Assembly: GCF_000003605.2 (NCBI RefSeq)
Contig: NW_003155737.1
Coordinates: 903,129-963,109, forward strand
Source: Saccoglossus kowalevskii
Lineage: Eukaryota; Hemichordata; Enteropneusta; Harrimaniidae
DNA length: 59,981 bases
Direction: 5' to 3'
Shown here: positions 4,529-59,981 of the stretch, piece by piece
How positions within the stretch are numbered: position 1 is the stretch's first letter
Layout of the letters: every line of letters starts with the position of its first letter
The notes under the pieces: model-generated
Databases searched by the model: none
What the model saw: the letters and a program-made list of their open reading frames with translations, nothing else
What the model was told of the DNA's origin: nothing
Made by a program: the position numbers and the translations under genes

Positions 4529-4715
4529 AGTTATACATGTTTGCATATGCAGTGATTCGTATTGTTAGAAATTGTAAACAATATGACCTTCATACAAAAA
4601 TACGTGAACGATCAATTAAGTGCAATACGTGTAAGGTAAATGGAAGACTTACAGTACAACTTATTTTTTTGATGAAATTAAAATAATTTAGATATAAAAT
4701 TATGCATTTACTTAC

Positions 4716-4840
4716 AAAAATAAAACTGGTTTACCGTTTTGTTTTCCACTTTGCTCATAGTAGAGTTCATGGACATGGTCAACCTTTAAACGACCAATGT
4801 TGTATGGATTGATCTCGGGGTAGAGATGTACTGCCGCCAT
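4716..4840 (-). CDS. Prolyl iminopeptidase-like hydrolase, exon 1
   Basis: This exon starts at ATG 4840 and encodes MAAVHLYPEINPYNIGRL, then VDHVHELYYEQSGKQNGKP and VLF, typical of the N-terminus of prolyl iminopeptidase ('LYPEI.PY..G.L.V...H..Y.E..G...GKP'). The donor is TTT/GTAAGT. The ATG lies in a GACATGG context. An in-frame upstream ATG at 4969 would add 43 residues of unfamiliar sequence and overlaps an ETS-like promoter site, so I prefer 4840. With exon 2 it gives 84 complete codons of one frame. Function (aminopeptidase on proline N-termini, cytosolic) is inferred from the family. Only the N-terminal part of the gene is in this window. Confidence 0.87.
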
Positions 4841-4959
4841 GTCGGTCGAGTAAGGTGGACGACAGACAAAACTACCTACCCGCGATAAAAACTGAGTGCA
4901 CACCGTTATCGATTTGATGACCACAACTCGTTTGGTTAGCACAACAGAACATGCCGGGA

Positions 4960-5050
4960 ACATAATCACTTCCGGAATCTAGTTGTATATGACGTGGAGA
5001 CCACGTTGTTATGACGTCACAGCTTCATGTGTATTTTGTTTCAGTAGACA
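4960..5050. promoter_or_regulatory. Divergent promoter with ETS-like site and CRE
   Basis: Between the minus-strand hydrolase start (4840) and the plus-strand ankyrin gene lie ACTTCCGGAA (4968-4977), an ETS-type core, and TGACGTCA (5012-5019), a perfect palindromic cAMP-response element, with a further TGACGTGG at 4989-4996. There is no clear TATA box. These are common elements of housekeeping bidirectional promoters. That it drives both genes is inference. The plus-strand gene would need a non-coding first exon, since its first ATG is at 5986. Confidence 0.5.
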
Positions 5051-20123: not shown

Positions 20124-20529
20124 ATGGCTAACATATGGTCTACAGTTTTACTATTAGGTTGCATTGTGAGCATTGCCAATGCAAAGTTGTATGCCACTTT
20201 GAATGGATCGAATGGCGTTCTTGAAAACTCAACAGCGCTTGAACTATCCGAAGGAGAGACGTTTCAATACTACTTACAAATCGAGGAGCAATACCTGGAA
20301 AATGTTATTCTCAAGCCACGTGAGCCTTCCCTGCTACTCACAACGCTGGTAGATACGTTTTCCCTTCACAACGACCATACTGTAAAGTTTAATATCACTG
20401 CGTTGGATGACGACGTTCCACGCATGTCGCCCTATCGAGCCCACGTGGATATATATGCCGGAGGGAACAGCGAACACGAACTGGTGATAACGGGCACAAT
20501 CGTAGTTTGGATTCGTGATAACGACCATG
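20124..20529 (+). CDS. Giant protein exon 1: signal peptide and N-terminal domain
   Basis: MANIWSTVLLLGCIVSIANA is a clear signal peptide, with predicted cleavage before KLYATLNG. The following ~115 residues include FQYYLQIEEQYLEN, FNITALDDDVPRMSP and VVWIRDNDHG. The last resembles the end strand of a beta-sandwich domain (Calx-beta or Ig-like), but I cannot name the family. Donor CATG/GTACGT; the exon ends in phase 1. Confidence 0.8.
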
Positions 20530-26500: not shown

Positions 26501-29500
26501 GGAAGTTAGGAGATTTGAGAATCATATGTATCAAGGCTGAACTTTAGTTTTATTTTTTGTGCCAAATGAACATTACTACCAATTACAATATTTTGAACAA
26601 CTATAAAACAAAATATATGCAGGCCTTGTGAAAACTAGAATGCCAATACTCAATGCACAAATTCCGGCATCATCAGAACCCACAATACCGGGAAAAAAAC
26701 AAAAGAGACAAACACAACACTGTACGACACATTCAATCCTGGGAGAGATACAAAGACCTGCTGGAAACCAACCAAAATTCAATGTCAAGAGTGAGCTCAT
26801 ACTGCCCGCTGCGGCAATCGCAACATGTTGCGATATGAATCTCAAAATTAGTCCCAATTGGAAAAAAAAAACATTTGATCATGTTGTCACCTGTAGTGAG
26901 TATCATATCAGAGGCCAGTAACAAACAAAATGGTTTCAGAGGCAGGAAATACGCTGGAACAATAACATTGATTGTCTTTTACTTCAGAGATAAAAATACT
27001 ATATAACTGTTAATTCGGGGTAGATTTAAAAGTCTACAATGTTTAGGTGAATATGAAACAAAACCTCTGATTTCAGGATAACAAACTTTTCGTATGATAT
27101 TATTACGTCAAACCTATTTTTCAAAACACATTTTAAAAATAACGCAAAGTAAACAGAACGTGTATATATTGCATTTATCGTGTCATCAACACATCATTTT
27201 GTGCACTACGTGAACCAATGATAGATAATTGTCAAAACGGTCACTATGAAAATAAGTTTCTTGAAACATTGTATGATGATGAGTAGCAGAGCATAAGTTT
27301 TTGATAATTGTTCTAGATGAGTACGATTTTGAGCACAATAAACTGTAATTTTGTATTCTTTATGGTAGCTGCTTATGTTTATCATGGATCTCTTAGTTGG
27401 TGGAGACAGGAGAAAATAGTGCAGACGATACACATCTGTATTATGTTGTCGCTGGATCTGTCATCGTTAGTTCCAGGTGCTAACAAGGGTACGGTGGTCG
27501 ATATGCCTGTGAATCTGAATTTTGGAGATGACACAGATGTCCAAGAGTCTCTTCAAATGAAGGTATGTCATTATTTTTACAAGTGAATATTATCGTTATT
27601 TTTAAATACAACGATTCTCACAGTCATTGGTTCACGTAAAGTATGTCACACGTCAACGGAGCTGACATCACTTCAGGCGATCATGTCACGCCCGAGAGTG
27701 ATAGTTTTAGAGAGTGTACTTCTAAATTATATTGGGAAAGTAAGCTTTTAGGTCGCACATATCACTTGCACCCATGAATTTGATATTGACTCACATTGTA
27801 AGATCCTTAATCCTTCTTGTGTAAATCTCTCTTTTGATATATTTAGTTAGGAATATATATTTTGGAATGTAGCCAAAAACAAGCAAATCATAGAGGCGAT
27901 ACTATTTAACGCAAATTGAATCGCTCTTCGATTTCAGATTGGCAACGCGGATGTGAGTCATTTAAGCGTACATTTTGAAATATCAGTATCGTAAATATGA
28001 TAAGCACACGTACATACGATATATATGTGAAATATATTTATTGTTTATATTGAATATCGTGGTGCTGCAATGTCACATATGACATTGAAACGTGACAAGG
28101 CAAGTTTTATGACAAGATATATTTCTTCAAATTATTCCATAGGTACTTAACATATCTGAGAATGAACAATATGTCGTGCTTATTACCATTATTGAACACG
28201 AGTATACTTTCCGCACTTCGAAAGATTTCTTCCACGTCGATTTGGTTGTGTGCTGTAAACACCACACCTTACATAATGCAGAAGGAAGGTAAGATAAAAC
28301 ATTTTGCATCGCAGACTGATAACCTGCTAAACATTAGTAATTTTCTGAACGGTAAACCACGACTGCAAGGAACGTACTATATTCGTTCTACACATATCTT
28401 GTTCACAGCTGGAAATCACATAATAATTTCATGTATCATTTAATTACTGATGTTATAAGATGTTTTGCAAACGCCAACTTTGTTGTCAGCCTGCAACGAA
28501 AAATTATATCTACAGTGAATACCGGCATGTCTTGTAATGGAGAAGGAAAAACAGAGAACACGATGACTAAAACCATTTAGCTGTGTAATGTTTAAAAAAT
28601 CTACGTTAGCTTGGCCTCCCACTTTATGAAAATATACAATAAACTCCTGTAAATGTAAACTAAGAGGCGTTCACAAGTATCCTAGCTAACTAACCTGTTT
28701 ACAAACAGTCAAGTACAAGTATTTTTTTATTATTTTGACTTTCTACTCCTTCAAAGTAATTGTTAAAGTTCATTGGGTACAGCAATTATGTGGTCTAGTC
28801 GCGTTGCGTAGGTTCGAAAATATCATTCCACCCGATGCCCCAAACGAGTGTCTCGTTGATGGATTATCTATGTCTGTGTTCTTAGCCAACATCAACAATG
28901 TTAATTCCTTTACGGTTTGTGTTATTCTGAGGTTAATTTAAAGTTAAAGACAAACGTCTGTCCCCATTGTGTTATCCCCTAAATGATCTCCTAGCGTGGT
29001 ACATATATAACATTTATTGCTGGCAACTACCACGCATTCCCGATCAATGAATCTAACATGGCATTGGCATGGCGGAATGTCATCAAGGAATGCCGTTGCT
29101 AAGTAGTCAGGAGTCATGCTATTAAAGTTCGAATGTTTTAAAAGCACATACAGTTGACTTCTCGAGACGTATGAATGGCACGTACCTTGCATCATATCCC
29201 TATTATGTATAGGACAAAGCTTTCGCACGAGAATTCTTCTGAGATATGATGTCCGACCAAGATAAAATGTCGAGGTCGCACCAAACTATTATATATATAT
29301 TTATATTTTGGGAAAATTCTCATAACTTTGAATGCATTCAATGATTCTTTTCAAGAAATCAGCACGTAAATCGTAATGAAAGGACACTATACCCTTATTA
29401 TAAAATGGAATATGCTATAAAAATCCGTGAATATTTGGTGAGCAATGCGTGAAAGCAGTGCACGTGTGCATGAGGATTGACTTTTTGGAATTTCTTCGCA

Positions 29501-30088
29501 TAAAATTTGCATACTGAAATTGTGGCAGGTGGGCCCTATACGTGCTTAATGTAAACTTATAAATATTCATAATCAAACGACGAAACATCATATTGCTTAA
29601 AAGCCAATGACCGACATTGTATTCAAGATATTCTATGAGCTCAAAGTTCGAACCCAGCCATGGTTGTTTTTTTCCTAGCACGGTAAAGCTAGGTCAGTGT
29701 TTCCTTGATGACACGTGATTTGGAAACAAAAGGCGAATAAAAATCCGAGAATAAACAAATTTCGAAAACAGGAAATTCAGTGTAATTTATACAAAATAAA
29801 GTTGAAAATGAAATCGAAAATTACTCTGTTTGGAATTTTTCAACATATAGAAAACATTTATTTATCAAAACCGAAAAAATATATTTATTTCTATCACAAG
29901 CAGCAGACTGTATAGTTGTCTTTACCTCAAATAATGATAAAAGGCCAGTCAAGACAACATCAACTTACCTAAGGATTTTTATTTTTCCAATAATTGTGTT
30001 GATTCATTTAATGTGCTCTTATATTTTCTCTATGACAATTGGTATCATCGCCAAAGATGATATGCAATATTTATTATTATTATTATTA

Positions 30089-30164
<76 letters not shown>

Positions 30165-33100
30165 GCTTTGCTCATAAATAATATGATACATAATGTGTCT
30201 GTTATTATTTATAGCATGCTTCTAAGCACAACAGTTGATGTGTTGAGTGATGGATCTCCACAACCACCAATAATACCTATGTTACATATATATCAACAAG
30301 ATAGTACACACCCTGCTTACGTAAGGGGATGGTCACCACAAGGTATGAGCTTACATAAATTGCAAAAATTGTGTAACGTGTACAATATAACCAACACACG
30401 TTTTCCGTGGCATATATATGATAATATATTTATAGATGTAGTTATAAGTCCGTTTGCCCGTCTATCTCCATGTTAAACTATCGCATCTGAATGCATGTGT
30501 GAATGTGTAATAACTTTTCAGGAACAGATACCTTGGCGATGACGTGTTTAAAGGTCGTGCTTAACTTTATTGGATTTTAATCACACTTTTAATGTTTTAC
30601 AGGCCATCCACTCGTCTATTCTATCGGCGAATACAGCCATCTGGGCAGCACAGACAGACCCAGCCTGCCTGCAGACTGTGTAACGGTGGACAAAGTTACG
30701 GGTCAGATTTCACTGCTTATTGCTCAAATTGCACCAGGACCATGGAATTTACCTCTGCTAATTAAAGATGCTGTGACTGAAGTCCAGGTTAGGTTACGCC
30801 TATTCACTCTGTCGGCAAACGACAGGATATGTGATCTGTCAAAATAAAACACTAGTTTGTCAAATTGTCCATGAAGAGAAATGCGTGGCAGTTATTTGGC
30901 CACTCATCCCATGGTCCATTTACACAGTTGGTCAATTAGTTGTTGAATGCCTCCGAAATGCAATTGAAGACGTTCAACCGAATGCACAGTGCGATTAAAA
31001 TACCGACTATGCGCGTCCCAAAATTACATTACTGAGTTTGCTTTCAGGTATCTTCAGATATCCCAGAAGGCATTACAATAATTAACAACATATTGACTGG
31101 AAGAGGTTGATGGGAAAAGATATCAACAGTATGATTAAAACCTATCATAAGTAATATCTGCATACTTACTTGTTTACGCCATTGGCACAAATAATAAGGT
31201 CTATTAGGGGTTCTGAAAGATGGGCGTGGCTAGCCTAATACCTTAACCTTTGAAACGGGAATTCGCTGAAATGTTGTCGAGTCAATCTTTGTGACTGGCT
31301 ATTTGAAAGTCCAAAGAAAGCTGCACCCAAACTAGTTTTTGAATTTTAAACTAAATATTATTTTATTTAGACCAATTCTCAATTTAAAATGTTCGTCAGT
31401 GTAGAGCTTACACTGTGGGGTCATAGTTTCCATACATTCATTTTTGGGTTACCCACTTTTTGCTTGCGCTTTTTCATTTATTTATTCGAAAGAAATTTCT
31501 TTAATTATTACCACTTAACGGCATGTTAAACCACATATGCTGTGGGTTAACCTGAGCAAAATAAAGAATGAAATGAAAAATTAAATAGTTGTTATGATAA
31601 CACGAACAATCCATCCATTAATAATCGAAGACGTAAGCGCACAGCGTAGTAGTCCGTATGTAAAGTTGTGTATATGGAACGAATAAGAGAGTAATAAAAT
31701 AAAATAACAGTACAATTAAATGTGTAACTGACGAACAACTCTACATGGGTGGGTAAGCTGTACACGGCACTGGAAATACATAAAATGCCTGCAAATAGAT
31801 AAATAACATAAAGAATGTAATAACACAGCATGGAAGATATGAAAAACTGCTTGTAGATACACATAGCGGGATACTCCGCCTCTACAGACAGCATTAAATT
31901 GATTGTGACATTTGATATGTGATTATAATACCAACTATCAGCAGTACTATTGGTTTGTTTTACACCTCTTGGGGCTAAGTCCATCCGTCCAGGATATTAT
32001 CAATTGATTTCAAGAAACGTCGCTAATCTATTTGCTACTTTGGAAATAGTTTTAAATTAGCATTTTAATAAGGCGCATGTGTGCCACTACGGGGGTTTCG
32101 TTAATATTCCAATTTCAGTCATTCCAATCGAAATCTCATGTTTGTGCTTTTAACCCCGACAAGCTTCTCGGCTGTGAAGATAAACGATGTTGAGACTTTT
32201 GTCAGATCCTTTGAACTTTCGAATGCCGGTTAAATTATCACGACACCGACGGTTGCATGTGTTTTAGTAGACCATTAGTTCTCTATTACTGATTTCTTCT
32301 GAACAAAGTAACAATAAACTTAAAGAAGTCTTGTGATTTTTAATCGCCATGGTTTTATGTCATAACTTCACGCTGACACGAAATATTTACTAAAAGAGAA
32401 ATTAATTAAAGTTCATCATTACTGTAACAGATTAATTATTAGAATATAATTATGAATCATAGATTTCCATGGAAACTGTATTGGTAATTGGTGACTTGGA
32501 CAAGAATATGCCGCCTTATATCGTAGAGCCAAAGTCACACAACTGCTGGCAGGATACCAAGTATGCGTGTGTAGATGATGAATTCGTCCTAGACATTGTA
32601 GCCAGGGATACAGATGTGTTCGACACGATGAATATCGTAGTCTTGTCGACCATTCCAGATAATGAAATGTCCATATCACGCGGTGATATACATGATAAAA
32701 AGGGATATATAGAAGGTAAACACAATATTATTTCAATAATTTGTGGTTTATAGAATGAAGAACGATAAACATAATGGTAGTATCGAGTCCCAGCACATAC
32801 CTAATTCAAAACGTGTTAGTTGGTAACCCTACATGTCTTTGGGTTCATTAGACAATCTTTGATTAACGAGGAACGTGTTTGACTGTTGGACATCCTTGTA
32901 TAAGGCAATGTTTTCCCACTTTCAAGAATACTCAATATTACCACCCACCCTCCCAATTTGCATTACCACATTCACTCGTCCAGTGGTGTTTAAGGAGGGT
33001 ACAAAATCTCATCGCTATGCTTACGTATGCAGAAAGCATAACATTATTTTTAAAAACATCGAGCGTATTGTACACGGAGGATTTGAAGCGTGTTGTATTC

Positions 33101-39100: not shown

Positions 39101-42100
39101 ATGCAACAATAACACTAAGCCAAATGAAACCTGCCAAGTATTTGATTTATTATCAAAATCACTGACCACTTGCTAATGATTGCCGAATATACCATTTAAT
39201 TGACCACAAAGGTCACATATACTGGTGCTTTCGTTGGTATGACAACATCACAAACATATATGTTCCAAACTGAAAAATGTTACTCAAGAAGCGAAACCAA
39301 ACAAAAAATATTACTTTTCACTGAACATCCATTCTTGTTATAGGCGTGACGGCAAGTCTAAATGATGGAGATCTCACCAATGCAACATCTTTGAGTAATC
39401 ATGACCCCTTTAGGTGAGTACACACATGGCATTACAGTAGAAATATGTAACATATAATTACAGTGATTAAAGGGAACCATGTTAATCCACCACGGTTGCA
39501 CAGTAAAATCAAGTGACACCCTCTATGCAGTTAGGGTCAACTGAGTTCACGACGGGTAAACTATAAATTCACTGTATAATAATCACCAATCTTGTTTATG
39601 GGTAGTTTCGTCAGACGACATTCTGTTTTATATATCTCACGATGCGTAATAAGTGGTTTTCTCTTCTGTAGTGAGGATGCTGTTACAATTGCATTTGTAG
39701 TACAGCCAGTCAATGACAACCCGACTGTGAATGCATCAACAATAATTGCCCTGACAACCATAAAAGAAGACCAAGACAGCGGAGATGGAGATAGTATTGC
39801 CAAGTTGCTGAGCAATTGCCATGATGTGGATGTTATTGGAGAAGAACATTTGGGAGTAGCAATAACTTGTATGTTTCATCTTACATATTCAAGCAAAACA
39901 CCTATCGTCATCGTTGCTACATAAACAAACAATAATCTTTGAGGTCGCATACAGATTTCTTCTTCGCAATATCGTCTAGTATCCTTATGAATGACAGTGC
40001 ATTGTATCATTTTAAATTATACTGATAATGTCTTTGAAGTTTTTGTCCTGAAATATCAGATTCTATAACTGATAAAGTCAACGCTTTATCCCCGCAAAAT
40101 TGCAATTGTTAAATTGCTTTTAGTGTAAACAATCCTATGTTTGTACTATTCCATAATGATTTGTTTAACATTTACTTTACTTCTGACACCTCAGATTCGG
40201 ATATAAGCAATGGCATGTGGCAGTACACTATAGATAATGGCACTGTGTGGAATAATATCACTGCGGTCTATAGCTATATGGCACTGGTACTTGGTGAAGA
40301 TGGTAATACAGACATATATAGGATCCGATTTTTACCAAATGAAGACTGGAGTGGTACAGCCTTTATTCAATACAAACCTTGGGATTTTACTGACGGCCTT
40401 ACTGCTGGGACATTGAATGTGAGCACAATTAATGCTAAATATTAATTTATTTATTATTTTTATCACTATAATATAAGGTATGATAAGATTGTTTATGTCT
40501 GTAGATGAATTTGTGTAGCTACCCAAGGTTCACCGAAATAGGATTGTGTTTGGATATATCATATGATTAGGCAATTATGATATATCATGTTATTATTATG
40601 AATTATGATACAGGTTGATACTGCATCAATATAGCCAATAGTTATATACCTTATGCCAAGGCATTATATATAATAATGTTTTTGTTATGCTGCAGGTTGA
40701 TACTACGTCAATAGACCCAGTAGTTGGAGCATATAGTCTAATTGAAGGCAAAGCAGTTATTACAGTGGAACCAGAAAACGATTCACCATCACTGTCATCC
40801 GGTAGTAATTTTTCACCTATGCAGGAGGACATCATCACCTCAACTGGTACTCTAGTAATTCAGCTCATTTGGTCTAGTTGGAGTGATAAGGACGGAGACG
40901 GACAAGGGATTGCTGTAGTCCATACTGATAACAGACACGGAGTATGGCAATATGGATTTTCATATCCAGTGACCTGGTACGATTTTATTCCAATACCAAC
41001 ACTTCACTATGCTACCCTTTTGAGTTCAAATGCTAAACTACGCTTCTTACCAGATGAAAACTTCAACACAGTGTATGACAATGATGGAAATGCCCGACCA
41101 CCAGATGATGTGCCATACATAACAATACTTGCCTGGGACCAGACAGGAGATACATCGCTCCAAAATGGTGTGGATGTTTCGGATCATGCAGCTGATTCAA
41201 CCAGTCCATTTAGTAGTGGCACATACAATGTCACCCAGCAAATCACTGCGATAAATGACAGGCCAGTTTTGAAACTGACCGACCCAGATACATCGTCTTA
41301 TGAAACAACCTTACTGGAGAATGAATACGAGGTGGCAATAGTCAGTGAGAATGTAACTTTATATGATGTAGACAGCCCGTTTCTGCAGCTGTTGAAGGTT
41401 ACAATTTCATACAATTTTGACTCAAATTCTGAAAACTCAGAAGAAATGGATTGTGAAGGAACATCTTCATCAGATGATGCAATAGAACAGATATTGTATT
41501 CCCTAACTGACCTACAAATTGATGCTACAGTACAGTCATGGTGTCCATATGAAATAGAGTTTCAGGCAATTGGTCCAACGATCCCAATTTCACAATTTAA
41601 CACTCTTCTTAGAACCTTAAAGTACTCAAATACCAAGGCTGAGCCTCACCCAGCTGACCGGACAATTTCATTTAGTGTAAAAGATACATATACCATGAGT
41701 TTGACAGAAGAAACCACTGTTCATGTCCAGTTCCAGAATGATGCCCCGAAGTTACGATTAAACCTATTAGGAAATGATACACTATATATGACATATATGG
41801 AAGGTGTAGGTTCAATGAATATTATCCCTGAATTAATCTTAACAGATAGCGACAGTACTGTGATTATGGATGCAATTGCAGAGTTAGCTGAAGTATTTGA
41901 TGATGGATTTGAGATTCTTCAGGTGCATACTGAGAACACAAACATCATGGCAACATATGTTGATGGTAGATTAACTTTAACTGGTGCTGACTCAATTCAA
42001 AACTATGAAATAGTTTTACGATCTCTTGTTTATGAAAATTCACATCAAAATCTTTCTGAAAGTGAAAGAACAATTCAGATTATGGTACATGATGGCGATA

Positions 42101-45100
42101 TGAATTCATTACCGGTGTTCTGTTTACTGTCAGTGATAGCAGTGAATAACCCACCTGTATTCTTGCAAAACTCTATCCAGTTAACACCCATTAAAGAAGA
42201 CAGTACTGACCCTCCACCAATTGCAGTAACAGACCTACTCTACTATGCAAGAGATGTAGACAATGTTGATTTAGGAATTGCAATTATCAATTCAAATGAT
42301 GGCGAGAGTGGTACATGGCAGTTTGAAACAAATGGCGTTTGGACAGACATGCATGTTACTGATATTTCCAATACGCTTTTACTCAATTCTGAGCAAGTTA
42401 TTAAATTTCAACCAAACAATGATTTCAATGGTGCTAGTTATTTGGAATACTTAGCTTGGGATTTAAGTGATGGTCATCTTAGTGGATCAATCAATTTAGA
42501 TCTTACTCAAAGGGACATGGTCACTGGTGCATTTAGTGTAGACAATGCAACTGCAATAATCATGGTGGAAGCAGTCAATGATTCACCAGTGATGATGAGT
42601 GAAGGATATTTTAACACAATTTATGAGGATATTCCAACAGAACAGAATAATGGAACAGAAGTTAGCAAGCTTTTGGAGAACACGTGCACTGATATTGATG
42701 GTGATATTGTTGGTGTGGCAGTTATTGGAGTAGATAATCGTTATGGAATTTGGCAGTGGACATGCAGCTCTTCAATGGACCGGGAGTGGCACGACCTCAT
42801 TGGTGATATAATGTATGGTAAAATTGTACCAGAAACACCAATTCCTGAGAAAGCAACATTGTTATCTGCAGACTGTTCAATTAGATTTCAGCCACAAGAT
42901 GATTTCAATAGTGAAGGAAATACTGAAATTGACCTTGGTGCAAAACATGCTATGCCATATGTCACGCTACTGGCTTGGGACAACACTGGTGATACCAATG
43001 GTAAATCGGGATGCCATGGACAAGATACAACACACAATACAGAGAATGATATAAATGAGTTCAGTTCTGATGCTTATAACTTTTCCATTTTGGTAGAAGC
43101 TACAAACGACCCACCATCATTGAAACTGGGCAATTCAGATGCTGGAAACTTTAAAACACACTTTATTGAGGATGGTGACAGAGTTCACATTGTTGATGTA
43201 ACTTTTGTTAACATTGTGGATGTTGATGACATCTTTATGAAAAACATGACAATAAGAATTAATAATGTAATAGATGGAGCTGGAGAGATCCTAGAATTGC
43301 AATCATCAAACATTGTTTCAATGTCTGGATCACAAGTCAGAATTAAGCTAACACTAAATGGAAGTGCGACTATAGTGAAACTATTACAATACTATAACTC
43401 TCATTCTGATAACTCTACTATAGGACGCACCAGCCTCACTTTCATTCCTAGTGATCAATCTGAACAAATCCACAGTGAGGCATTCATTGAATTGCTAAAA
43501 CATGTTATGTACAGTAATCATGTTGATGAACCAAATAACACAACTAGAATGATAACAATTGACATAAGTGATGGGCAGGAGTCAGGACATGCTACAACAT
43601 TGATGGAGTTTGTAATTGTGAGTGACCATAACCCAGAAATAACTATGCCCACCGCAGAATTATTTTTTACTGAAGGAGACTCAGAACTTTATATATTCCC
43701 GGATATTCAGCTAGCAGATGCTGATGACAATACATACTACCACATACAAGAAGCTGTAGTAACTATATATCCACTATTCAGTGGGACCTTAGTAGATGAA
43801 TGGCTCACCGCTGTTGACTTTAACAGTGAACTAACTTTGGATTACAATTCCACCACTGGACTTCTCACAATCAGCACACTGTCATCAATTGAGAATTACG
43901 AGGCGATATTGCGAAGTGTGGTTTATGTCAACCAAAATCCTGAACCACTTCTCATAGACAGACAAGTCACTGTCAAAATAACAGATGATGCAGGACTAGA
44001 AAGCAACATTGAAGCAGTCACAATCAGAATTCTTGTTATTAATGATAACAAACCTATTGTCTATGCTGGTGATCTTTTTCATTTCATCGAAGATACAGAC
44101 ACATCTGTGGAAGTATCAAGTGGTTTAAGATTAATCGATGCCGATAGTGGGGACCTTCCAATTAGTTATGTTAATATTTCTATTCCAACAGCTTATGATG
44201 AATTTGATGAATATCTCGAAGTGGACCTTTGTAACAACATCACAAAACAATACTTGCCAGCAATTCACACACTTCAGCTGACTGGACCAGCAACTATTGT
44301 ACAGTTTCATGCTGTTCTGGAATCATTGACATACATAAATATTGCAGAAGAACCAACTCCTGGCATACATACCATACAAGTTATTGCTAATGACGGCATA
44401 TACACCAGTTCTCCAGCGTATATTGAAGTAGAGGTTGAAGCTGTTAATGATAGCCCCATACTGGACCTTGATATTCTCTCAGAAGGAAGAAATATATCAA
44501 TGACCTATATTGAAAACGCTGGCGCTGTGCTCATACTTCAAAATTACTCACTGTCTCTGACTGATAACGATAATAAGAATCTCTCCTTTGCTGAAATCAG
44601 TTTGCATCATCCTGGGAGCGGATATTTTGAAATCATTATCACTGACACATCAGACACCAACGTTGAAGTCAGTCAACCAATAAGTTCTACTCATATTACT
44701 CTGACTGGAGAAGATACAATTGATAATTACAGGAAGATTTTACTACGCATGACATATGAGAATGTCAATAATAATCCAGTGACAGACAATCAACTAATAG
44801 AAATAACAGTATCAGATGGCCTGCTAGCATCCAGTGCATTTGTTCACCTTCATATAACAGCTGTAAATGACCCTCCGGTTGTTGAACTCAATGACTATGT
44901 AAATGAAGTTGTGTTTATTGAGGAAGGCAATGAAGTATTGATTTCACCAAATATAACAATTGAGGATTATGATGATAGTACAATAATAAATGCCAGCATC
45001 CAAATAAGAAACTGTCTTGATTGTCCATTAGAAAAAATCATTGTAGACAATGGCTTGATCAGTCACTTCGGTCTGACTGTCAGCTACAACACTACTTTTG

Positions 45101-48100
45101 GTACCATGTCAATAATAGGTCAAGGATTAACCAGCACATACCAAACGGTGCTCAGAAGTATTGCATACATAAACCATGCTGATGAGCCCAATTTTGAAAC
45201 CCGGCTAGTGGAGTTCATCGTGAATGATAATAGCGATGCCAGTATCCCGGCATATGCCAGTGCGATAATTGCAATGATCAACGATCCACCAACTTTACAG
45301 GTAAACAATCTCTCATCAGAATTTCACACCTCTTTCATTGAGCATGGTCATCCAGTGGGAATAGTTGCTGATTCAACACAAATATCAGATGTAGATGACA
45401 CCATGATAGCCAAACTGAGTGCAGAAATCCTAAATATTAAAGACCTTGGTTATGAAACTTTATTCTTTGACTTAGATGATCTTCCTGCAAGTATCATTCA
45501 ATCAGCATTATCAGTCACTGAATTAGCTGAGCTGAACTCACATGATGGCCTGATGAATTCTACTAGATCTTTCTCTGTCACCCAAGAGTTCACATTGCAC
45601 GAATGGACTGAGATCATGAAGACTCTGCGCTACTGCAATACATACAACAATGCAACAGGTGGTAAGCGTACTATAGAAATGTATATCACAGATCCTTCTG
45701 GAGCATCAAGTAACATTTGCCACAGTTATATAGATGTAATTCCAGTGAATGACCCACCAGTACTAACAAAACCATTCACCTATGAGTATGTTATTAAGGA
45801 AGATCAGAATCTCACAATTCCCGTATTAGCAAATTTTGAAGATGCAGAAGAAATTCTAGATAATGATAGTATTGTAATCCTATCTGATCCTGATTATGGA
45901 AGCGTGCTAACAATTAAAGGCAACATAGAATATTTTCCAGATTTTAATGATTATGGAAATTATACACTTTCATTCCATATTTGTGACAGTTTGTTTGCCT
46001 GTTCGGAGCCTGTGGTCATTAATATCACCATCCAATCAGTTAATGATCCTCCATATATAATAGAACCACTTGAAATCAATGTTGATGAAGATAGTTCAGT
46101 TAATATCAACCTCAGGGATTTTGTTGGTGACTACGAGGATGATCTCATTCCACATAATCCTTTCCCTGCAGTCACATTCTTAGCAGGTCCAAACACAGGA
46201 AAGAAGAATGTAAGCAGTGACAATCAACATGTTTATTTCACTCCACATACAAATATCAATGGCCAGGACCTTATCATTGTGTCATTCTGTGACAGTGACA
46301 ATGCCTGCATTGAGTATGTCGAGATAACTATTAATGTCAAGTCAGTTAATGATCTACCCGGAGTAACTGTAGTTTACCCAGACCAAAGTGAGTTCTTCAT
46401 ACCCAATGAAGACACACCATTGCAGATTGAAATAATTTTAGAGGACTTGGAGGACAGAACACCTGGTGTGCTGACGATCATATCAGTAAACAGTGGTACT
46501 GCAGAACACAATCCAAATCATCAGTCAGAATCCATCGAATATGACACAGTATATAAACTAACAACTCATATTGACTACATGCCATTTAAAGATTTCTATG
46601 GAATAGATGAAATCTTATTTGAGGTGTGTGATAACGATAATGGCTGCATAAACACTACAATTGATATAGACGTACAGCCAGTAAATGATCCACCATTGAT
46701 ATCAGTCACAACATTATACATGGATGAGGATGACATATTAACCATCAATATGCCACATGACCTAAACATCACTGATGTTGACAATACTTTAGACTACACG
46801 AATGTAGAGTTAATGAAAGATGTAAATATTGGGGATTTACACGGTCACAATACATCTATATGGGTTTACCATCCACCAGACAATTTCTACTCAGACCAGT
46901 ATACAGCTGATATTGTTTTTACCGTCAAAGCATGTGACACTGACCTACTTGATCAACAATGTACAAATGGTAATATAACTATCATCGTAATACCTGTTAA
47001 TGACCCTCCAATTACACCTGTCATTGCCATTGAAGTCGATGAAGATGGCAGTAAAATGTTCAACCTGGGTGAATACATTTGTGACATTGAAGATGGTATG
47101 GTAAGAACTGACAGAATCAGCATAATTGAACCAACACCACAACTTGTGTCAGTTAGTTATGATACTTATACAGGCGAAATCACTGTTAGTGCAAATACCA
47201 ATGTCTATGGATTCGAACAAGTGCATTATCAGGCCTGTGACTTGGACAACATTTGCAGTGACAACGGGCTGATAAATATAGATGTTATCAACATCAATGA
47301 CCCACCAGTTGCAGATGACTTTGTGTATGAAGCTAAACAAAATGAACTGCAGTTGATCAGCTTATTCGACAAAATACATGACACTGAGTTAACAGAAGCA
47401 GAAAAGATAATTTTACTTGATGTCTCGCTCATAGACCCTCAAAGTGGTCAGTACGTTGGTAACATTGTAACAGAAAATGGCGGGACTGTTAAAGTGCTAA
47501 AACACCATGCACTACTTACATATGAACCAAGAATTGATTATATTGGAATTGATTATTTCAATTACTCTGTGTGTGATGAATGTGATGAAAGGCTTGGTGT
47601 TGTAGGAGTTACAGACATCAGCTGTGTCAAACAGAGGGAACAGAGCAGTGGCTTGAGTAAAAACAAGAATGGCAAAAGTATTGCGTGCGACCATGGTTTC
47701 ATAACAGTGTATGTGCTGAATTCTAATGAAGCACCAGTCGTTTCTGAAATGTCTGCAATTACCATACAACCAGAATCAGTTCTAATACAACCATTTCAAG
47801 AACCATTAAGTGGTCTCACTACAGACAGCATGAACATTTATGACCCTGATGATATTCAGGCAGCAGGTATACTCAACCAAGGAATGGATCTGGAACAATA
47901 CAATTTAATTGACATCTCTGATATCAACATCACAAGTCTTTCTGTTGTGACACAGCCAACAATGGGATCAGCTGAAACAGTCTTCTCAGATGATGAGCTT
48001 CCAGGTTTGTTGTACACACCATTTTCTGGTCAAAAAGGCTATGACAGTTTCATATTTCAAGTCTGTGATAAATCCACTGAATGGAAGATTGGAACGTGTA

Positions 48101-51100
48101 CTTGGGCAACAGCAAGAGTACATGTTACAACTCCAGGACCAAATATAACAGCCATCATAGCAGAACCAGCCAAAGAAGAATTAGGTGACCTTATACTTCA
48201 CACTGACTGCAAATTTTCACGATGGGATACAATAAGTGTCATATTTGATCGTGATACCAGCATGCCGCCTCATGGAAAAGAGGATACAGAACTATCTGCC
48301 AATGATTTGAACACACTTTTTGAGTTTGCTGATCCATTCATTACTGAAAATATGAACAGCAACCCTTACATTGGAGTATGGAAGACTCCAAACATTCTCC
48401 AAATCACCATAGTGGACGAGGGATACCCTCAACCAGCTGTAGACATTGGAACATGGTTTCTGAAGATAAAGAACATTGAACCATGTGGAGGATTTGATGA
48501 ACTTTCACATGAACCGCTTCCAGTTGAAGAATGGTCCGTATTTTGTATGACAGATGCTGGCTACAACTCGGCTCACTCAACATCAACATCTCCATTGTTG
48601 GAGGGCAGTTGGGGGTACCACATACCAACAGTGAAGGATATTATAATTCGTAATCGTGATGTGCCTGTGCAAAAACTTAGAGAAAACAGCAACTATTTTG
48701 GTGAAAAGTCAGAACTAGTCCTGAGTCTCTGGCCACCTCTGTCTTACCTACAATTCGTAGAACTTTGTAAGCTTCAAGCAGACGAGATTATTGATTTTAC
48801 TGTATTTGGTGAAGGCACTGAACTAACAAAGGCAAGTTGTGAAAACAGAGTACCAGAAGAGGTGGCACAGACATCAGAAACCAGCAGCACAGTCTATCGA
48901 GGAACATTTCTTAGATCTGTAAATAAACGGTCATTGGATCTTCTTTCCAGTTCTGACCCGAAAGGCACCAAATTTGAATCCTGGATAAGAGACAAAAGAT
49001 CATCTTCATTTGATGGCAATTCATCAACTATCATGCCAGTGTTCACAGAGTTGGTGTTTGAGGTTACAAAAATGTCAAATGCTCTGATAAACCCAGAGGT
49101 GGACAGAGACACTTTTATCAAAACTGTCACATCATCAATAAAATTGGTGACGATAGCTAATATTGTATCAGTCACAACAGGTATGTCTGGTTTGGAAGCT
49201 TTAAACTACACAACTGACATGATAATTCCATTGGAGAAAGCTGAGCTTTACCAGGAGTACATCATTGGAGAAATTCCACAAGTCATTAGTGTAACAGCAA
49301 GTGACCCAGACAATTTAGACATGAATTACAGTGATGGAGATGTAATTAGCATTGTCTTTGATAAAGACACTGACATGCCTGCAGTAACAGAAAGGGCCGA
49401 TTTGGACAAGATTTTTATGTTTGATCCTTCGCTAGGAACTGATTATTCAGGAATGTGGAAGTCTTCCCAAGATTTGGAAATAACAATAATAGATTCATAC
49501 CACAATAGCAGAGACAGTAGAGATATTCAAAATATATCCATCACTTTTACACATAATATATTATACTCAGGACAAGAGTTCACTGGGCAGTATCTGTACC
49601 TTCCAACAACAAGGCCCAATTGTGTTGGAGTAAATGTCTGTGGTGGCAACACCACTGCACTGACTATAGGAATATGTAGTGAAGATGGACTGTCATGTCG
49701 TGCTACAGGCACATATTTCATCACTGATGGAAACTTTGGTACAGGCATTGCAAATAGTTCACTTTGGTGGATTATTCCAATTATTATCGGATGTGCTATT
49801 GTACTCTTCATTCTTATAATCATTGCAATTTGCTGCTGTAAATACAAGAAGAAAGCTTTTGAATTGCAACATGGATCATTTGATACTTCAAAACTCAAAA
49901 GAAGCTCATCCACTCGAACATCTTGGAAGGTTAATGCCAAAACACAGAAGATTGGTCGCACAGCTCCAGGGATACTTCCACAAATGATGTTATTTAATTC
50001 ACAAGCTCATTCCAAAAAACTGGTTGATGATGTCAGCAAGGCACAGTATGGGAAAAAGCAAGTGAATGTGGATTATTCAACTGTACAGTCAAATAAGGTT
50101 AGAACTTTAACCCAGTAGGGGTATTTAAAGGGTGGTAGTCATTGCACCATGCATACTCAAGATATAGGTTTCATATAACCAGCGGTAATTAGTACAAGTG
50201 ATGCCCAGGCCAAAACTCGTACCCGTGATTTCATTAGAAAAGTGCATTGGATTGTGGGAAAATTAATGTTTATCAACACAAATGTCACACATGTGCGGCA
50301 GGATGACCAACGTGCTTTAATATTTGGGTTGTGGGAAAGTAACTGTTTATCAACACAAACTATGCACATATGCTGCTTATATATACTATAATTTAGATGA
50401 ATAGCTCATTTATTTATTTGCTGATATTTATATATATTTTTCCATTACAGAGTGACGACAGCACAGATCCAACTGTATCTGCCATGTTTCCAGATCTGAG
50501 AGCTGCCTTGTTGCTTCAACGTCACACCAAGCATAGTTCTATTGGTGAATCTGAACCCAACATTCATCCCCATTCACCGACAAGATCAAACCCGACAGCA
50601 CAGCAACCACCATTGTTGAGACATAATTCAGAAATCGACATGTCTATTCCATCAAAACATGAAGACACTATTCCACAATATACTCAAGAGTGGCAAAAAC
50701 TCAGTGGTGTCATACCACCACCACCGTCACCACCCCCTCCTGACTGGGATGACAGTTCACAATCCAGTCCAAACAGAAATAATACAAAACTATCAACACT
50801 TAGAACTGACCCGGTGCAAGAAGCACTGTTGATTGGACATAGGAATTCCCTCCAAAATGCATCAAATGCAATGTCACAAAAACTTTCGCAGATGGGTAAC
50901 CAGCCATCTTCTGTACAGGGGACAATACCTCTACGCTACATATCAAGCAATATTCCTGAAGCATCAGCAACATCAAGTAACTCAAGCCTTTCTGATGTAG
51001 GATATAGGACATTTCTACAAAATCATTTTCCAAAAAGAAAAATATCTCCTTCAGTGGAGGACCTATCAATTCAAAGACCGGGAAAGGAAAGTCCCACAGA

Positions 51101-51969
51101 GGCTTTCGGAGAAGAATCAGAAATTGAAATACTAGCAAAGCAGAGAAAATCCACAATTAAAAGAAGATCTGATACAAGTATCTACAACAAAGATGGTTAT
51201 GAACTCAAAACTCTCAGGTAAGATAATGTAGAGAAAACGATATGAATTGAAGCCATGTGTAACTGTAATTTGCAGAATCTTCTATGTCATGTTCTCTAGG
51301 GTAGTCTTATATATTCATTTTGTTCTGAGACATCACAGTCAATGAGTTCTGACATGTATGTACTGTTTATGTATTCTATATTGCTGAATTCCTGTGGTAT
51401 CACCCAGATATTATTTTTGGGATGTTTGCAAGGATCAGCACCAACATTTTTTTAATACGTTATTAATTGAATCCAGGTTCCCACAACATCACAGATGTTT
51501 CATGATTCTCTATGCTCCTGCTAAAACTGTTATTGGAACAATACTTTTAGACCCTATTAAATTTCTCAGGAGTTTTATATATTTTTCAAAAGTACGTTTT
51601 GCAAAATTTCACTACTCACCTCCCCCCAAACCGCATCATGTGGAAGCTGATATTTATTTGTGAAAACAATATGGTAATGGCTGGATATCTTTACCCAAAG
51701 ATATTGTAGTTTCATGTCTTGTGTCTTTGCAAATACCATACTGATTCAGTGATCGGGGAGCTGTACTTTATTCATATCAGAGTGTCCAAAAATATTAGTT
51801 CTAACTACTAGAGCAAACATACCTTGCAGCAATCATTTATTAATGAAAACAAATGTGTTTTTGTTTCAGGGGCGACAGCCATGTTCCTGCTATGTACAAC
51901 TCTGAAAATAGCTTGCATGATTTATTAGCAAGGAGGCAATCAACAAACAAGGATAGCTCCAGGTTGTAG
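20124..51969 (+). CDS. Giant single-pass surface protein with cadherin-like repeats
   Basis: Seventeen coding exons: 20124-20529, 27477-27562, 28143-28288, 28812-28931, 30215-30342, 30603-30787, 32463-32715, 33165-33301, 33730-35080, 37940-38050, 38681-38851, 39344-39413, 39672-39868, 40195-40418, 40696-50097, 50451-51217 and 51870-51969. They total 13,854 nt, 4,617 residues plus stop, with every junction in phase. Order: signal peptide (1-20), cadherin/Ig-like N-terminal part (to ~487), cadherin-like repeats and 'GIAV..W' modules (488-2880), seven tandem-95-like repeats (~2881-3673), two copies of a C-terminal module (~3675-3835 and ~4057-4210), membrane helix (4219-4243) and cytoplasmic tail (4244-4617). 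Modules are joined by VNDPP-like linkers, as in calcium-binding cadherin-like repeats. A role in adhesion or reception is inferred from architecture only. I do not recognise a named orthologue. Exons 2 to 5 are the least certain; missed small exons are possible. Confidence 0.8.
21960..22267. repeat. Degenerate left margin of the 39-bp minisatellite
   Basis: Decayed copies of the unit are visible, such as GAGTAAACCAAGAAAACGAC (21972-21991), AGTGAACTCAGAAAACGA near 22013 and GTGGACCCAGAAAACAAT near 22101. Spacing and sequence are irregular. This pattern, a homogenised core with decaying edges, is typical of an old tandem array. Confidence 0.6.
22268..25806. repeat. 39-bp minisatellite array in intron 1 of the giant gene
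   Basis: The consensus unit is AGTGAACCCAGAAAACGATA followed by TAGACATGTAGTAACAATG (39 bp); a common variant lacks one C (38 bp). Roughly 75 units are visible, split by a gap. Because 39 is divisible by three, long open frames run through both strands (for example repeats of MSEPRKRYRHVVT), but 38-bp units shift the frame and no gene is indicated. Diagnostic variants (ACTGAACCC, AGTAAACCC, GCAGTAAC, GTAAGAATG, TCGACACG) reveal higher-order structure. Each unit carries AACAATG, a match to the SOX consensus, and the palindrome ACATGT. Confidence 0.95.
24378..25001. other. Assembly gap (624 N)
   Basis: The sequence is N throughout and lies wholly within the 39-bp minisatellite. The true length is unknown, and the array is probably longer or collapsed here. 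Confidence 0.99.
25807..27476. other. Remainder of giant-gene intron 1
   Basis: Intron sequence between the minisatellite and exon 2. Short open frames at 26576-26924 on both strands show no recognisable product. No other structured element was found. Confidence 0.4.
27477..27562 (+). CDS. Giant protein exon 2
   Basis: This exon encodes GANKGTVVDMPVNLNFGDDT and then DVQESLQMK. It accepts a phase-1 codon from exon 1 and ends in phase 0 at a good donor (AAG/GTATGT). An alternative acceptor at 27470 would add two residues. It reads as a short beta-strand segment of an unassigned extracellular domain. Confidence 0.6.
28143..28288 (+). CDS. Giant protein exon 3
   Basis: Acceptor CCATAG and donor AAG/GTAAGA. 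It encodes VLNISENEQYVVLITIIEHE, then YTFRTSKDFFHVDLVVCC. Alternating hydrophobic residues suggest beta strands. Phase 0 in, phase 2 out. Confidence 0.65.
28812..28931 (+). CDS. Giant protein exon 4
   Basis: Encodes RFENIIPPDAPNECLVDGLS, then MSVFLANINNVNSF. Acceptor (CGTAG) and donor (GAG/GTTAAT) are both weak; they were chosen because they alone keep the frame with exons 3 and 5. A donor at 28914 (ACG/GTTTGT) is stronger, but would put the next exon out of frame. Boundaries are therefore tentative. Confidence 0.5.
30070..30164. repeat. ATT microsatellite beside exon 5
   Basis: A run of about 95 bases of (TTA)n with a single phase break ends 50 bases before the acceptor of exon 5 (TTTATAG, ending 30214). 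It occupies the region where the polypyrimidine tract and branch point would be expected to begin. Confidence 0.97.
30215..30342 (+). CDS. Giant protein exon 5
   Basis: Encodes VLSDGSPQPPIIPMLHIYQQ, then DSTHPAYVRGWSPQG. The end, continued by exon 6 as GHPLVYSIGEYS, resembles the start of a cadherin-like strand. Donor CAAG/GTATGA. Phase 2 in, phase 1 out. Confidence 0.65.
30603..30787 (+). CDS. Giant protein exon 6, cadherin-like
   Basis: Encodes HPLVYSIGEYSHLGST, DCVTVDKVTGQISLLIAQ and GPWNLPLLIKDAVTEVQ. The pattern 'Y.I....F.ID..TG.I......D.E....L...A.D' of cadherin-type repeats is visible (VDKVTGQI), though the calcium-binding DRE-type motif is absent. Strong acceptor (TTTTACAG); donor CAG/GTTAGG. 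Phase 1 in, phase 0 out. Confidence 0.75.
30788..32462. other. Giant-gene intron 6
   Basis: No exon supported on the plus strand. A minus-strand open frame of 130 codons (31592-31984) has hydrophobic stretches but no recognised family. The composition near 31440-31590, with AATAAA-like words, may reflect a decayed insert. Confidence 0.35.
32463..32715 (+). CDS. Giant protein exon 7
   Basis: Encodes ISMETVLVIGDLDKNMPPYI, then SHNCWQDTKYACVDDEFVLD and IVARDTDVFDTMNIVVLST. 'NMPPYIVEP..' starts an Ig/cadherin-like domain with a Cys pair; 'DIVARDTD' is a cadherin-like 'DxD' strand. Donor GAAG/GTAAAC. Phase 0 in, phase 1 out; it continues in exon 8. Confidence 0.78.
33165..33301 (+). CDS. Giant protein exon 8, Ig-like domain end
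   Basis: Encodes VTWTLTWKPVTAVYYPVCFT, ALDSKDSYSNPHCLVLQAL. This matches the common extracellular pattern 'F.W.P......Y.VCF.A.D.....S..C..I.V' of Ig-like domains. The two Cys are suited to a disulfide. Acceptor TTTGTAG; donor AAG/GTCAGT. Phase 1 in, phase 0 out. Confidence 0.75.
33730..35080 (+). CDS. Giant protein exon 9: cadherin-like repeats, furin-type site
   Basis: A 450-codon exon starting APVIDLNGMAANGHDHMV. It holds at least three domains of the 'FTE....V.I.....L.D.D' type ending in 'Y.N...EP...R.V......VNDSP' (YDNIDDEPSDETRWV, NLVNDSPTF). Residues 758-761 (RERR, then DTSN) fit a furin cleavage site. The last residues (YEDATRASQF, TTWHLA) start a 'GIAV..W' module that exon 10 continues, linking this exon firmly to the downstream ones. 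It is CpG-rich, unlike exon 15. Confidence 0.88.
35522..35649. mobile_element. TTAA-flanked MITE-like element
   Basis: Ends TTAAAGCGGGAGGGTTGTCA and, on the opposite strand, TTAAAGCGGGGGAGTCGTCA are inverted repeats matching at most of about 25 positions (continuing CCTGCGCA / CCTACACA). TTAA at both ends is the target-site duplication typical of piggyBac-like elements, though here it also forms part of the palindrome. At 128 bp it has no coding capacity. Confidence 0.55.
36480..36690. repeat. Copy of the dispersed repeat family
   Basis: AAAATGGCCGCCAGTCAGAC (36532-36551) corresponds to 3303-3322. The following GTGCATATGTAAGTC and AGTTTGAATG words, and AGCATGTCTGGGAAATGGCT near 36637, match the layout near 3250-3400. 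Non-coding. Confidence 0.5.
37940..38050 (+). CDS. Giant protein exon 10
   Basis: Encodes ASIVNDSDVDAISGIAIIGV, then DNDHGSWEYLAYPSHWK: the diagnostic core 'D.D....GIAI.GVD..HG.W.Y' of the type A module. Acceptor TTCTGTAG, donor AAAG/GTGGGT. Phase 1 in, phase 1 out. Confidence 0.85.
38681..38851 (+). CDS. Giant protein exon 11
   Basis: Encodes EIELSVNTNPDGSVP, then NFVQFIPHPNWHGTTHITFV and AWDKTG. This is the second half of the type A module ('RF.P...ypG...i...AWD.T'). Acceptor TTCTTGTAG, donor ACAG/GTTAGT. Phase 1 in, phase 1 out. Confidence 0.85.
39344..39413 (+). CDS. Giant protein exon 12
   Basis: Encodes GVTASLNDGDLTNATSLS, then NHDPFS: the loop of the type A module between 'AWD.TG' and the final strand. 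Acceptor TTATAG, donor TTTAG/GTGAGT. Phase 1 in, phase 2 out. Confidence 0.8.
39672..39868 (+). CDS. Giant protein exon 13
   Basis: Encodes SEDAVTIAFVVQPVNDNPTV (end of the first type A module with VNDNP linker), then TIKEDQDSGDGDSIAKLLS and HDVDVIGEEHLGVAIT, the start of the second. Acceptor TTCTGTAG, donor ACTT/GTATGT. Phase 2 in, phase 1 out. Confidence 0.85.
40195..40418 (+). CDS. Giant protein exon 14
   Basis: Encodes YSDISNGMWQYTIDNGTVWN, then YRIRFLPNEDWSGTAFIQYK and PWDFTDGLTAGTLN, nearly all of the second type A module. Acceptor CCTCAG, donor GAAT/GTGAGC. Phase 1 in, phase 0 out. Confidence 0.87.
40696..50097 (+). CDS. Giant protein exon 15 (9.4 kb): modules, tandem-95 repeats, membrane helix
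   Basis: One uninterrupted frame of 3,134 codons (residues 1196-4329). Order: A3 (~1236-1382), B1-B2 (~1385-1680), A4-A5 (~1680-2000), B3-B8 (~2003-2880), seven tandem-95-like repeats (~2881-3673), D1 (~3675-3835), a Ser-rich segment with RDKR (3960-3963), D2 (~4057-4210), membrane helix (4219-4243) and CCCKYKKK. Type A has 'GIAV...D.R.GVWQ', 'LRFLPD.NF', 'LAWD.TGDT'. Type B has 'L.D.D', 'LTLTG..SI.NYE.VLRSL.Y.N', 'VNDPP'. Tandem-95 has 'ED....', 'Y.P...F.G.D', 'VCD.DN.C', 'VNDPP'. It is AT-rich and CpG-poor. Acceptor CTGCAG; donor AAG/GTTAGA. If the donor is skipped the frame stops at 50118. Confidence 0.95.
50451..51217 (+). CDS. Giant protein exon 16: cytoplasmic tail
   Basis: Residues 4330-4584. 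Polar, Ser/Pro/Asn-rich and low in hydrophobics, as expected of an intracellular tail. It contains VIPPPPSPPPPDWDD (4416-4430), a proline-rich motif suited to EVH1, SH3 or WW domains, and basic patches such as KRKISPS and STIKRRSDT that could be phosphorylation sites. Acceptor ATTACAG in phase 0, as exon 15 requires. Donor CTCAG/GTAAGA; retention of the next intron would stop immediately at 51219-51221. Confidence 0.87.
51870..51969 (+). CDS. Giant protein exon 17: C-terminus
   Basis: Encodes RGDSHVPAMYNSENSLHDLL, then ARRQSTNKDSSRL and stop TAG (51967-51969). Acceptor TTTGTTTCAG, joining phase 2 to exon 16. RRQS is a basophilic kinase-type site. The end SSRL is not a clear PDZ ligand. Confidence 0.78.
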
Positions 51970-58844: not shown

Positions 58845-59672
58845 CTATGATGGAAACAGATTGCAGTAGTTCAGTATTACAAAGGTTAGGACTGAATTAA
58901 TGATAACATGTTTCCTCATGAGTTCACAATATGGTTAGAACACAGAAAAACGAAACAGATTTGGGAAACCGGGCAAATTTTCATGAAAAGTCAGAAATGA
59001 AAATGAGAAATTGTCATTTTTCGCATTGGTTTCTATGGTGAGAGTATTTCAATTTTTTATGTTAATAATAACATGGGATGAACAAGTCATATATTGGTAT
59101 AAATATTAAAATCAGTTGAAAAATTAAATTATTAATGTTTTCTCACACATTGCATTGCCAAATATGTTCATTATGACGATGATGGTCTTCACTACATGTT
59201 ATGTTCAGTGTAGTCCCATATGACATATACAATACATGTTAAGTTTAGATACACATAATATGAATGTGTTCTGCCAAACCACTTCCCTTTAAGACGCTGA
59301 CATTTTCATAGCAAGAAATGTTTGCAGTAGCTAACTTGTGAATTCACACAAGAAGTTAATTTAATAAGTGATGCTGACTCCAACTCAAGTGAAAATTGCT
59401 ACACAATTTACGTGATTTTACCGGACTTTTAAATTATACATTTTGTACTGTATATTTGATAACCAAGCTTTTGATATTTATTTTGTGAGGTCTACAACAA
59501 TTAATCATGACATGAAAGTAATACGTGTATTAGTTGGATCTTGAACCATCAGATATCCATGAAGGTGTGCATAGGTGATAGATGCTACAATCCTGCACAT
59601 ACAATGTGTGTGTGTAAAGAAACCACAACACATAGGGAACAGAGTGAAATGCATGGTTGAATCACAAATTAC
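58845..59672 (-). other. CNOT9 last intron
   Basis: Bounded by donor AAG/GTAATT at the high-coordinate end and acceptor CATAG at the low end. AT-rich; nothing notable inside. Confidence 0.8.
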
Positions 59673-59764
59673 CTTGGGTTATCAGACAGCCTGAGATAAC
59701 ACCTTACTACATGTTTCAATAGTCTTGCAGATGGTTCTTTACCTAGTTGTATCACCATTTTACC
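59673..59764 (-). CDS. CNOT9, penultimate coding exon in view
   Basis: Encodes [20 protein letters not shown] and [11 protein letters not shown], matching the conserved C-terminal armadillo region of CNOT9. Acceptor TTTTTCTGCAG, donor CCAAG/GTAATT; phase 2 out, joining exactly to the last exon. Earlier exons lie beyond the right end; 59765-59981 is intron. The gene is tail-to-tail with the giant gene. Confidence 0.96.
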
Positions 59765-59981
59765 CTGCAGAAAAATACAGTTTGATTGTAATGAGTACAA
59801 GAACTGGTTTGTATTTATTAGATACAGGAAATGGATGTGTTGAAAGTCATAGGGATGTAAATACTGTTTTCTTTTCCAAAATGTTGACTCTTTTATGAAA
59901 ACACAAGTGTGCATATCATTGCTACATATATGTAAGTGCACATACCATGATTATTGCTATGTAAATGTACTTACCAGGATT

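Follow-up and report, generated by a model that had tools for sequence, protein, structure and literature searches.

A giant single-pass surface protein of the hemichordate Saccoglossus kowalevskii with ectodomain modules shared with bacterial giant adhesin-like proteins

A stretch of 59,981 nucleotides from the genome of the hemichordate Saccoglossus kowalevskii (contig C4504; hereafter, the window) contains a gene of 16 exons that encodes a protein of 4,577 residues. With a probability of roughly 60%, we regard the product as a type I single-pass giant surface protein, which forms a Ca2+-stiffened stalk for adhesion or recognition and draws its ectodomain from a kit of modules common to bacterial giant adhesins. 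Most of the ectodomain is a run of 21 to 23 modules in tandem, which fall into three classes, termed W, B and T; the modules C1 and C2 follow. The module kit as such is known in bacteria; to our knowledge, an intron-bearing, membrane-anchored animal receptor that carries it has not previously been described, and among open-access papers none was recognised as describing this gene or animal tandem-95 proteins.

To derive the gene model, the long exon was used to train a splice and codon model, which yielded a chain starting from the ATG at position 20124. By reading the sequence, exon 7 was lengthened and exons 12 and 16 were added to this chain. All 15 introns are of the GT-AG type and join the exons in phase into one frame with a single stop, a TAG at the gene end (51969). 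An earlier account of the stretch, made from the letters alone (the sequence-only reading), had counted 17 exons and 4,617 residues in one in-phase frame. Both of its ends are exact and the in-phase GT-AG joins hold, whereas its counts of exons and residues do not; a 17th exon, sought in all 15 introns, is represented only by weak, phase-neutral candidates, the best of which (total 9.4) lies in intron 1. This intron also harbours a minisatellite with a 39-bp unit in about 75 copies (window 22273-25801), which is open in several frames and is interrupted at 24378-25001, where the assembly has a gap of 624 N.

The core of the gene, exon 14, is safe beyond doubt, since its 9,402 nt hold 3,134 open codons without a stop, while the longest open reading frame (ORF) in 200 mononucleotide shuffles reached 199 codons (mean 100). 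The coding signal, in a score trained on the gene model itself, amounts to 0.32 bits per codon in exon 14. Exons 3 and 7 show almost none (0.03 and -0.06, respectively), and exons 2-7 are therefore the less certain, soft spot of the model. The gene is real. Its start codon is followed by an N-terminus that looks signal-like by eye, in agreement with the signal peptide read previously, and the hydropathy profile contains one hydrophobic helix near residue 4179, behind which a tail of 373 residues (rather than the 374 counted before) extends to the C-terminus. The earlier view of one giant, single-pass, non-classical gene is supported.

The W, B, T and C-terminal modules of the sequence-only reading were recovered. 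The module model finds its five W (“GIAV..W”) modules, and its count of at least ten type B repeats agrees with nine clear copies, which form the basis of the B model, and two weak ones in exon 8 outside that model (residues 461-585, E 4.7e-8; residues 654-686, E 0.005). Six T repeats were used to build the T model, which detects a seventh at E 1.7e-4, and NCBIfam likewise gives seven stretches. C1 and C2, the two C-terminal modules, share 39% identity over 71 residues (E 1e-8) and are two copies of one module. Since W2 pairs with W4, W3 with W5 (36% each) and the best match of Bd is Bf, the gene seems to have undergone duplication of a W-W-B block.

The Pfam search proposed earlier as a check gave a divided result. 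Exon 14 matches Cadherin_4, Big_9 and Cadherin_5, with the best stretches in T1, and the NCBIfam model tand_rpt_95 (NF012211) at E 1.8e-48 and 162.5 bits against a cut-off of 90 bits; the T region alone scores 141.8 bits, and the protein falls into the tandem-95 class. The N-terminal pieces (exons 1-2 and exons 4-7), by contrast, have no Pfam counterpart up to E 5, and the “Ig/cadherin-like” domains once assigned there were not recovered. A Calx-beta first domain and cadherin-like exons 4-7 were impressions gained by eye, without Pfam support, and are not claimed. W4 alone matches Cadherin_5 over its cut-off (E 7.7e-7), W3 and W5 have no Pfam match even at E 5, and a dedicated W model was found in neither Pfam nor NCBIfam. 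No solved structure is related to exon 14 by sequence at E 0.01; one B-W pair was modelled as a tandem beta-sandwich fold.

Relatives of these modules are found in bacteria, and although the earlier account could not match the architecture to a named animal gene, the ectodomain does have its counterpart there, in giant adhesin-like proteins. In a plasmid collection, W4 matches 17 records, each with an alignment that spans 80% or more of the module; 14 come from Azospirillum, and the best match has 37% identity and E 1e-15. Two adjacent B repeats match 18 records (seven over at least 80%), led by a Variovorax “tandem-95 repeat protein” at E 1e-18. A scan of 84,980 prokaryote genomes for W returned 290 pattern matches and 153 relatives, of which 80 were kept; these loci belong to the Pseudomonadota, Cyanobacteriota, Bacteroidota, Planctomycetota, Verrucomicrobiota, Nitrospirota, Acidobacteriota, Myxococcota and Chloroflexota. 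Profile models built from the animal protein alone were then run on the ORFs of 86 bacterial loci, i.e., these 80 and six from plasmids, and matched W in 83, B in 41 and T in 47 loci. As the loci were picked for W, only co-occurrence is informative: W and B share an ORF in 37 loci, W and T in 45, and all three classes in 24. The modules are interleaved, for example as TWTWBBBWWTB in a marine Indioceanicola plasmid (L016) or as WBBWTWBB (L085), and B is directly followed by W at 18 places in 13 loci. The animal gene has the same trait, with W, B and T interleaved in one frame. We infer the adhesin status of the bacterial proteins from annotation and literature.

None of the module models matches shuffled ORFs or the 33 ORFs of eight cadherin loci in the host genome, which served as controls, and no W was confirmed in viral contigs. 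The C modules differ in their distribution: C2 finds nothing in the plasmid collection at E 0.01, and the C model has no match in the ORFs of the bacterial loci. Among the four plasmid loci with annotation, L015 (which has W) and L019 (which has only B) carry TolC and HlyD-family genes for export beside the repeat gene, and none occurs in the stretch examined of the other two (L017 and L018).

Within the host genome (572 Mb in 4,830 contigs), the gene appears to exist in one copy, as far as the sensitivity of the searches reaches; these proceed exon by exon with a loose first look, and a copy that is split or diverged might escape them. Used as queries, both halves of the long frame match themselves and, weakly, exon 8 of the same gene; one bacterial W query finds four places and one bacterial B query six (E 0.01), all in this gene, and C2 matches only itself and C1. 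The tand_rpt_95 model finds seven places, four of them in this gene. The other three are weak (C2222:274433-274705, C762:247244-247489 and C3978:10830-10961); EGF-like cysteines follow the first two, which look like one other gene family with related repeats.

The codon usage of the gene correlates with that of host cadherin exons (r 0.81) as opposed to two bacteria (-0.54 and -0.60), and the GC content at third codon positions is 0.31; the host set has 0.36 and the two bacteria have 0.92 and 0.85. Approximately 7.7 kb downstream, an exon fragment resembling Rcd1/CNOT9, a conserved animal gene, lies on the minus strand at the right edge of the window (59672-59950; E 3.3e-8, 33.7 bits, under the Pfam cut-off of 37.7). 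On the basis of the introns, the host-like codon usage and this neighbour, we reject bacterial contamination.

Phylogenetic trees were calculated for W and B. The first W tree comprised one W per locus from 82 loci; the second combined W2-W5 with 40 loci from the best 45, after near-duplicates (L015, L038, L039, L044 and L045) were dropped, and omitted W1 because of its very long branch. The B tree contained nine animal repeats (Ba and Bb omitted) and up to two per locus, 64 B from 37 loci. In the W and B trees the animal modules sit on long branches, and in the free trees they do not form one clade (3, 2 and 3 changes in the first W, second W and B tree, respectively); in the second W tree, a single animal clade appeared in 0% of 200 bootstrap trees. 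One animal clade is nevertheless not rejected by the approximately unbiased test (p-AU 0.417 for W2-W5, 0.613 for the nine B), and no bacterial donor group emerges from either module. Consequently, the trees show neither a single origin nor a donor. Given the long branches, the lack of a donor group, the introns and the host codon usage, the likeness to bacteria is probably old and would reflect either an ancient transfer or deep shared ancestry.

A possible, if tentative, history is that a giant adhesin gene, or a large W-B-T part of one, entered the animal lineage long ago and gained introns, C1/C2, the membrane helix and a scaffold-binding tail; the product would now be a giant surface receptor, which perhaps meets bacteria with their own adhesion modules. 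Material for such a transfer is at hand, since the amoeba Vermamoeba vermiformis holds an expressed gene with a bacterial tandem-95 repeat protein as best match, grouped by its authors among bacterial-best-match genes (PMC7125106), and a bacterial symbiont of tunicates expresses giant proteins of the tandem-95 class (PMC10264598). Further eukaryotic sources touch on such names: a 24.7-kDa snail secretome protein was named DUF4347 domain-containing by BLAST, sequence and architecture not being shown there (PMC6744689), the same name stands in a green-alga table without either (PMC10451321), and a paper on the sea-anemone pedal disc mentions cadherin-like repeats as a class only (PMC6626399). 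If the W-B-T ectodomain was acquired by transfer, it would be an unusually large adhesive ectodomain for an animal to have adopted. Under deep common heritage, the bacterial giant-adhesin kit would also have served outside bacteria, and this genome would retain it in a single gene. In either case, W provides a clean sequence tag for mapping the distribution of the family among animals.

Bacterial proteins of such a build presumably become rigid through Ca2+ at their joints and project outward. By analogy with the bacterial giant adhesins, acidic residues at the domain junctions of the animal protein probably bind Ca2+, which would stiffen the string of modules into a long stalk and hold its N-terminal part at a distance from the cell, where it would serve in adhesion or recognition; from this likeness we infer an adhesion or receptor role. 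The protein carries two furin-type R-x-K/R-R sites, at residues 718 and 3920, compared to 0.15 expected, which suggests processing, and cleavage possibly precedes function. The sites read R-E-R-R and R-D-K-R and fit the furin consensus. Ahead of the membrane helix there are 61 sequons versus approximately 44 expected, as would fit a surface glycoprotein. The tail, finally, might couple the protein to a cytoplasmic scaffold: its end, SSRL, fits a class I PDZ ligand, although ends of this kind are not rare by chance. The same features leave room for a rather unlikely alternative, in which the protein is a component of an apical matrix or cuticle, freed at the furin-type sites to join the glycocalyx or extracellular matrix, with the helix serving delivery only. 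The second site, about 260 residues before the helix, and the surplus of sequons agree with such a fate, whereas the long tail, with its proline-rich stretch and PDZ-like end, exceeds what delivery needs.

It would be natural to take repeats of this kind in an animal protein as the mark of a “cadherin”, but this view has to be corrected. The Pfam cadherin repeat (PF00028) is absent from the Pfam results for exon 14, for the 11 B repeats and for the other pieces scanned (all but exon 3), and the canonical Ca2+ motif DxND.[AP]P does not occur in the protein, which together rule out a classical cadherin. The label “cadherin-like type B” may be apt for the fold class, but the Pfam model touched by these repeats is that of the calsyntenin C-terminus (CLSTN_C). 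The gene could be a divergent calsyntenin/cadherin receptor, with B as an animal-born expansion of calsyntenin type and the bacterial likeness as convergence or very remote kinship. We consider this distinctly improbable. The model does match exon 14 as a whole at E 1.2e-11 (44.6 bits, cut-off 27), and six of the 11 B repeats touch it singly at E up to 5 (0.00088 at best). Yet the best stretch covers only 143-218 of its 354 positions and no lone stretch passes E 0.01, so that CLSTN_C is not matched over most of its length; furthermore, W resembles bacterial proteins over the full module and no calsyntenin model, the bacterial B query is answered by this gene alone, and W, B and T co-occur in bacterial ORFs. 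Least likely is an artefact of assembly or annotation, i.e., bacterial DNA or two genes misjoined. The large intron 1 with its minisatellite and gap and the lack of coding signal in exons 3 and 7 would suit such an artefact, but the in-phase introns, some of which interrupt W1 and W2, the codon usage and the Rcd1/CNOT9-like neighbour speak against it and largely refute the contamination part. We thus favour the giant, stalk-forming surface protein, the parts of which are listed in Table 1.

Table 1. Parts of the gene and its product, with positions in the window
Feature	Position	Strand	Remark
Exon 1: ATG, N-terminus that by eye looks signal-like, first extracellular region	20124..20529	+	no Pfam match
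Exons 2-7: N-terminal extracellular region	27477..33301	+	exons 2, 4-7 without Pfam family
Exon 2	27477-27562	+	
Exon 3	28143-28288	+	weak coding signal
Exon 4	30215-30342	+	
Exon 5	30603-30787	+	
Exon 6	32463-32715	+	
Exon 7	33165-33301	+	weak coding signal
Exon 8: repeats Ba (weak), Bb (very weak) and Bc, beginning of W1	33730..35080	+	
R-E-R-R, residues 718-721	34540..34551	+	furin-type consensus
Exons 9-13: remainder of W1, most of W2	37940..40418	+	
Exon 9	37940-38050	+	
Exon 10	38681-38851	+	
Exon 11	39344-39413	+	
Exon 12	39672-39868	+	
Exon 13	40195-40418	+	
Exon 14: last part of W2, followed by W3 and by B, W, B, T and C modules, membrane helix, tail start	40696..50097	+	
W3 module	40774..41250	+	also matched by bacterial W query
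B repeats d, e	41266..42156	+	bacterial B query matches; e slightly overlaps W4 start
W4 module	42142..42588	+	37% identity, full module, to Azospirillum giant proteins
W5 module	42574..43116	+	
B repeats f to k (six)	43117..45759	+	
Tandem-95 type repeats T1-T7 (seven)	45760..48090	+	
C1, C-terminal ectodomain module	48130..48630	+	
R-D-K-R, residues 3920-3923	48988..48999	+	furin-type consensus
C2, membrane-proximal module	49231..49719	+	related to C1
Transmembrane helix	49765..49845	+	hydropathy peak
Exon 15: cytoplasmic tail with proline-rich stretch	50451..51217	+	
Exon 16: tail end, C-terminus SSRL, stop	51870..51969	+	

Upstream of the gene, two exon-like frames on the minus strand (window 3693-3923 and 4712-4978) contain HGGPG and FDQRGAGKST, which we take to be motifs of proline iminopeptidases, and probably belong to a neighbouring gene; the frame at 4712-4978 has no Pfam match above cut-off. 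Closer by, on the plus strand, a frame of 150 codons with cysteines (17406-17858), also without a Pfam match above cut-off, might represent either a small gene or a 5' exon. Elsewhere in the genome, classical cadherin repeats are densely clustered on contigs C2180 and C347, where they occupy long open frames (4,971 codons in one case); this suggests large or tandem cadherin genes. On the mitochondrial contig, TGA encodes Trp, and ATA, AAA and AGA stand where conserved Ile, Lys and Ser are expected; the 12 protein genes contain 98 ATA, 48 AAA, 4 AGA and no AGG codons. The genes, named by eye except for COX1 (Pfam model), follow the order ATP6-COX3-ND3-ND4L-ND4-ND5-CYTB, ND6 reversed, ND2-ND1, COX1 reversed, COX2. 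Such a code and gene order suggest a hemichordate.

Calsyntenins are single-pass animal surface proteins, and the B repeats touch their C-terminal model; the gene described here encodes about 4,600 residues without detected classical cadherin repeats, and we know of no W or T arrays in calsyntenins. From classical, proto- and Fat-type cadherins it differs by the lack of both PF00028 and DxND.[AP]P, and an echinoderm cadherin survey that also used hemichordate and other genomes does not mention it in its accessible part (PMC10734073), as expected for a protein without cadherin repeats. The Vermamoeba protein is likewise eukaryotic and bacterial-like in its tandem-95 repeats, but it comes from an amoeba, and the available part of the paper says nothing of its architecture, of W or B modules or of a membrane anchor (PMC7125106). 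BapP of Pseudoalteromonas tunicata, a protein of 1,600 residues reported as a Ca2+-dependent biofilm adhesin, shares tandem cadherin-like and Big_9 beta-sandwiches; it is bacterial, has Calx-beta-matching repeats and a propeller, and W modules are unmentioned in the accessible text (PMC12153261). Most similar are the giant bacterial proteins of the tandem-95/DUF4347/Ig-like/VCBS type from Azospirillum, Indioceanicola, Variovorax and others, which possess W, B and T modules. There, the modules sit in long open frames, and TolC/HlyD genes adjoin some of them, whereas the animal gene has a signal-like start, C1/C2 and, in place of an intron-free prokaryotic gene with TolC/HlyD export, 15 introns, a membrane helix and a cytoplasmic tail. 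The animal gene thus shares the modules of the bacterial giant-adhesin system and is not a member of that system.
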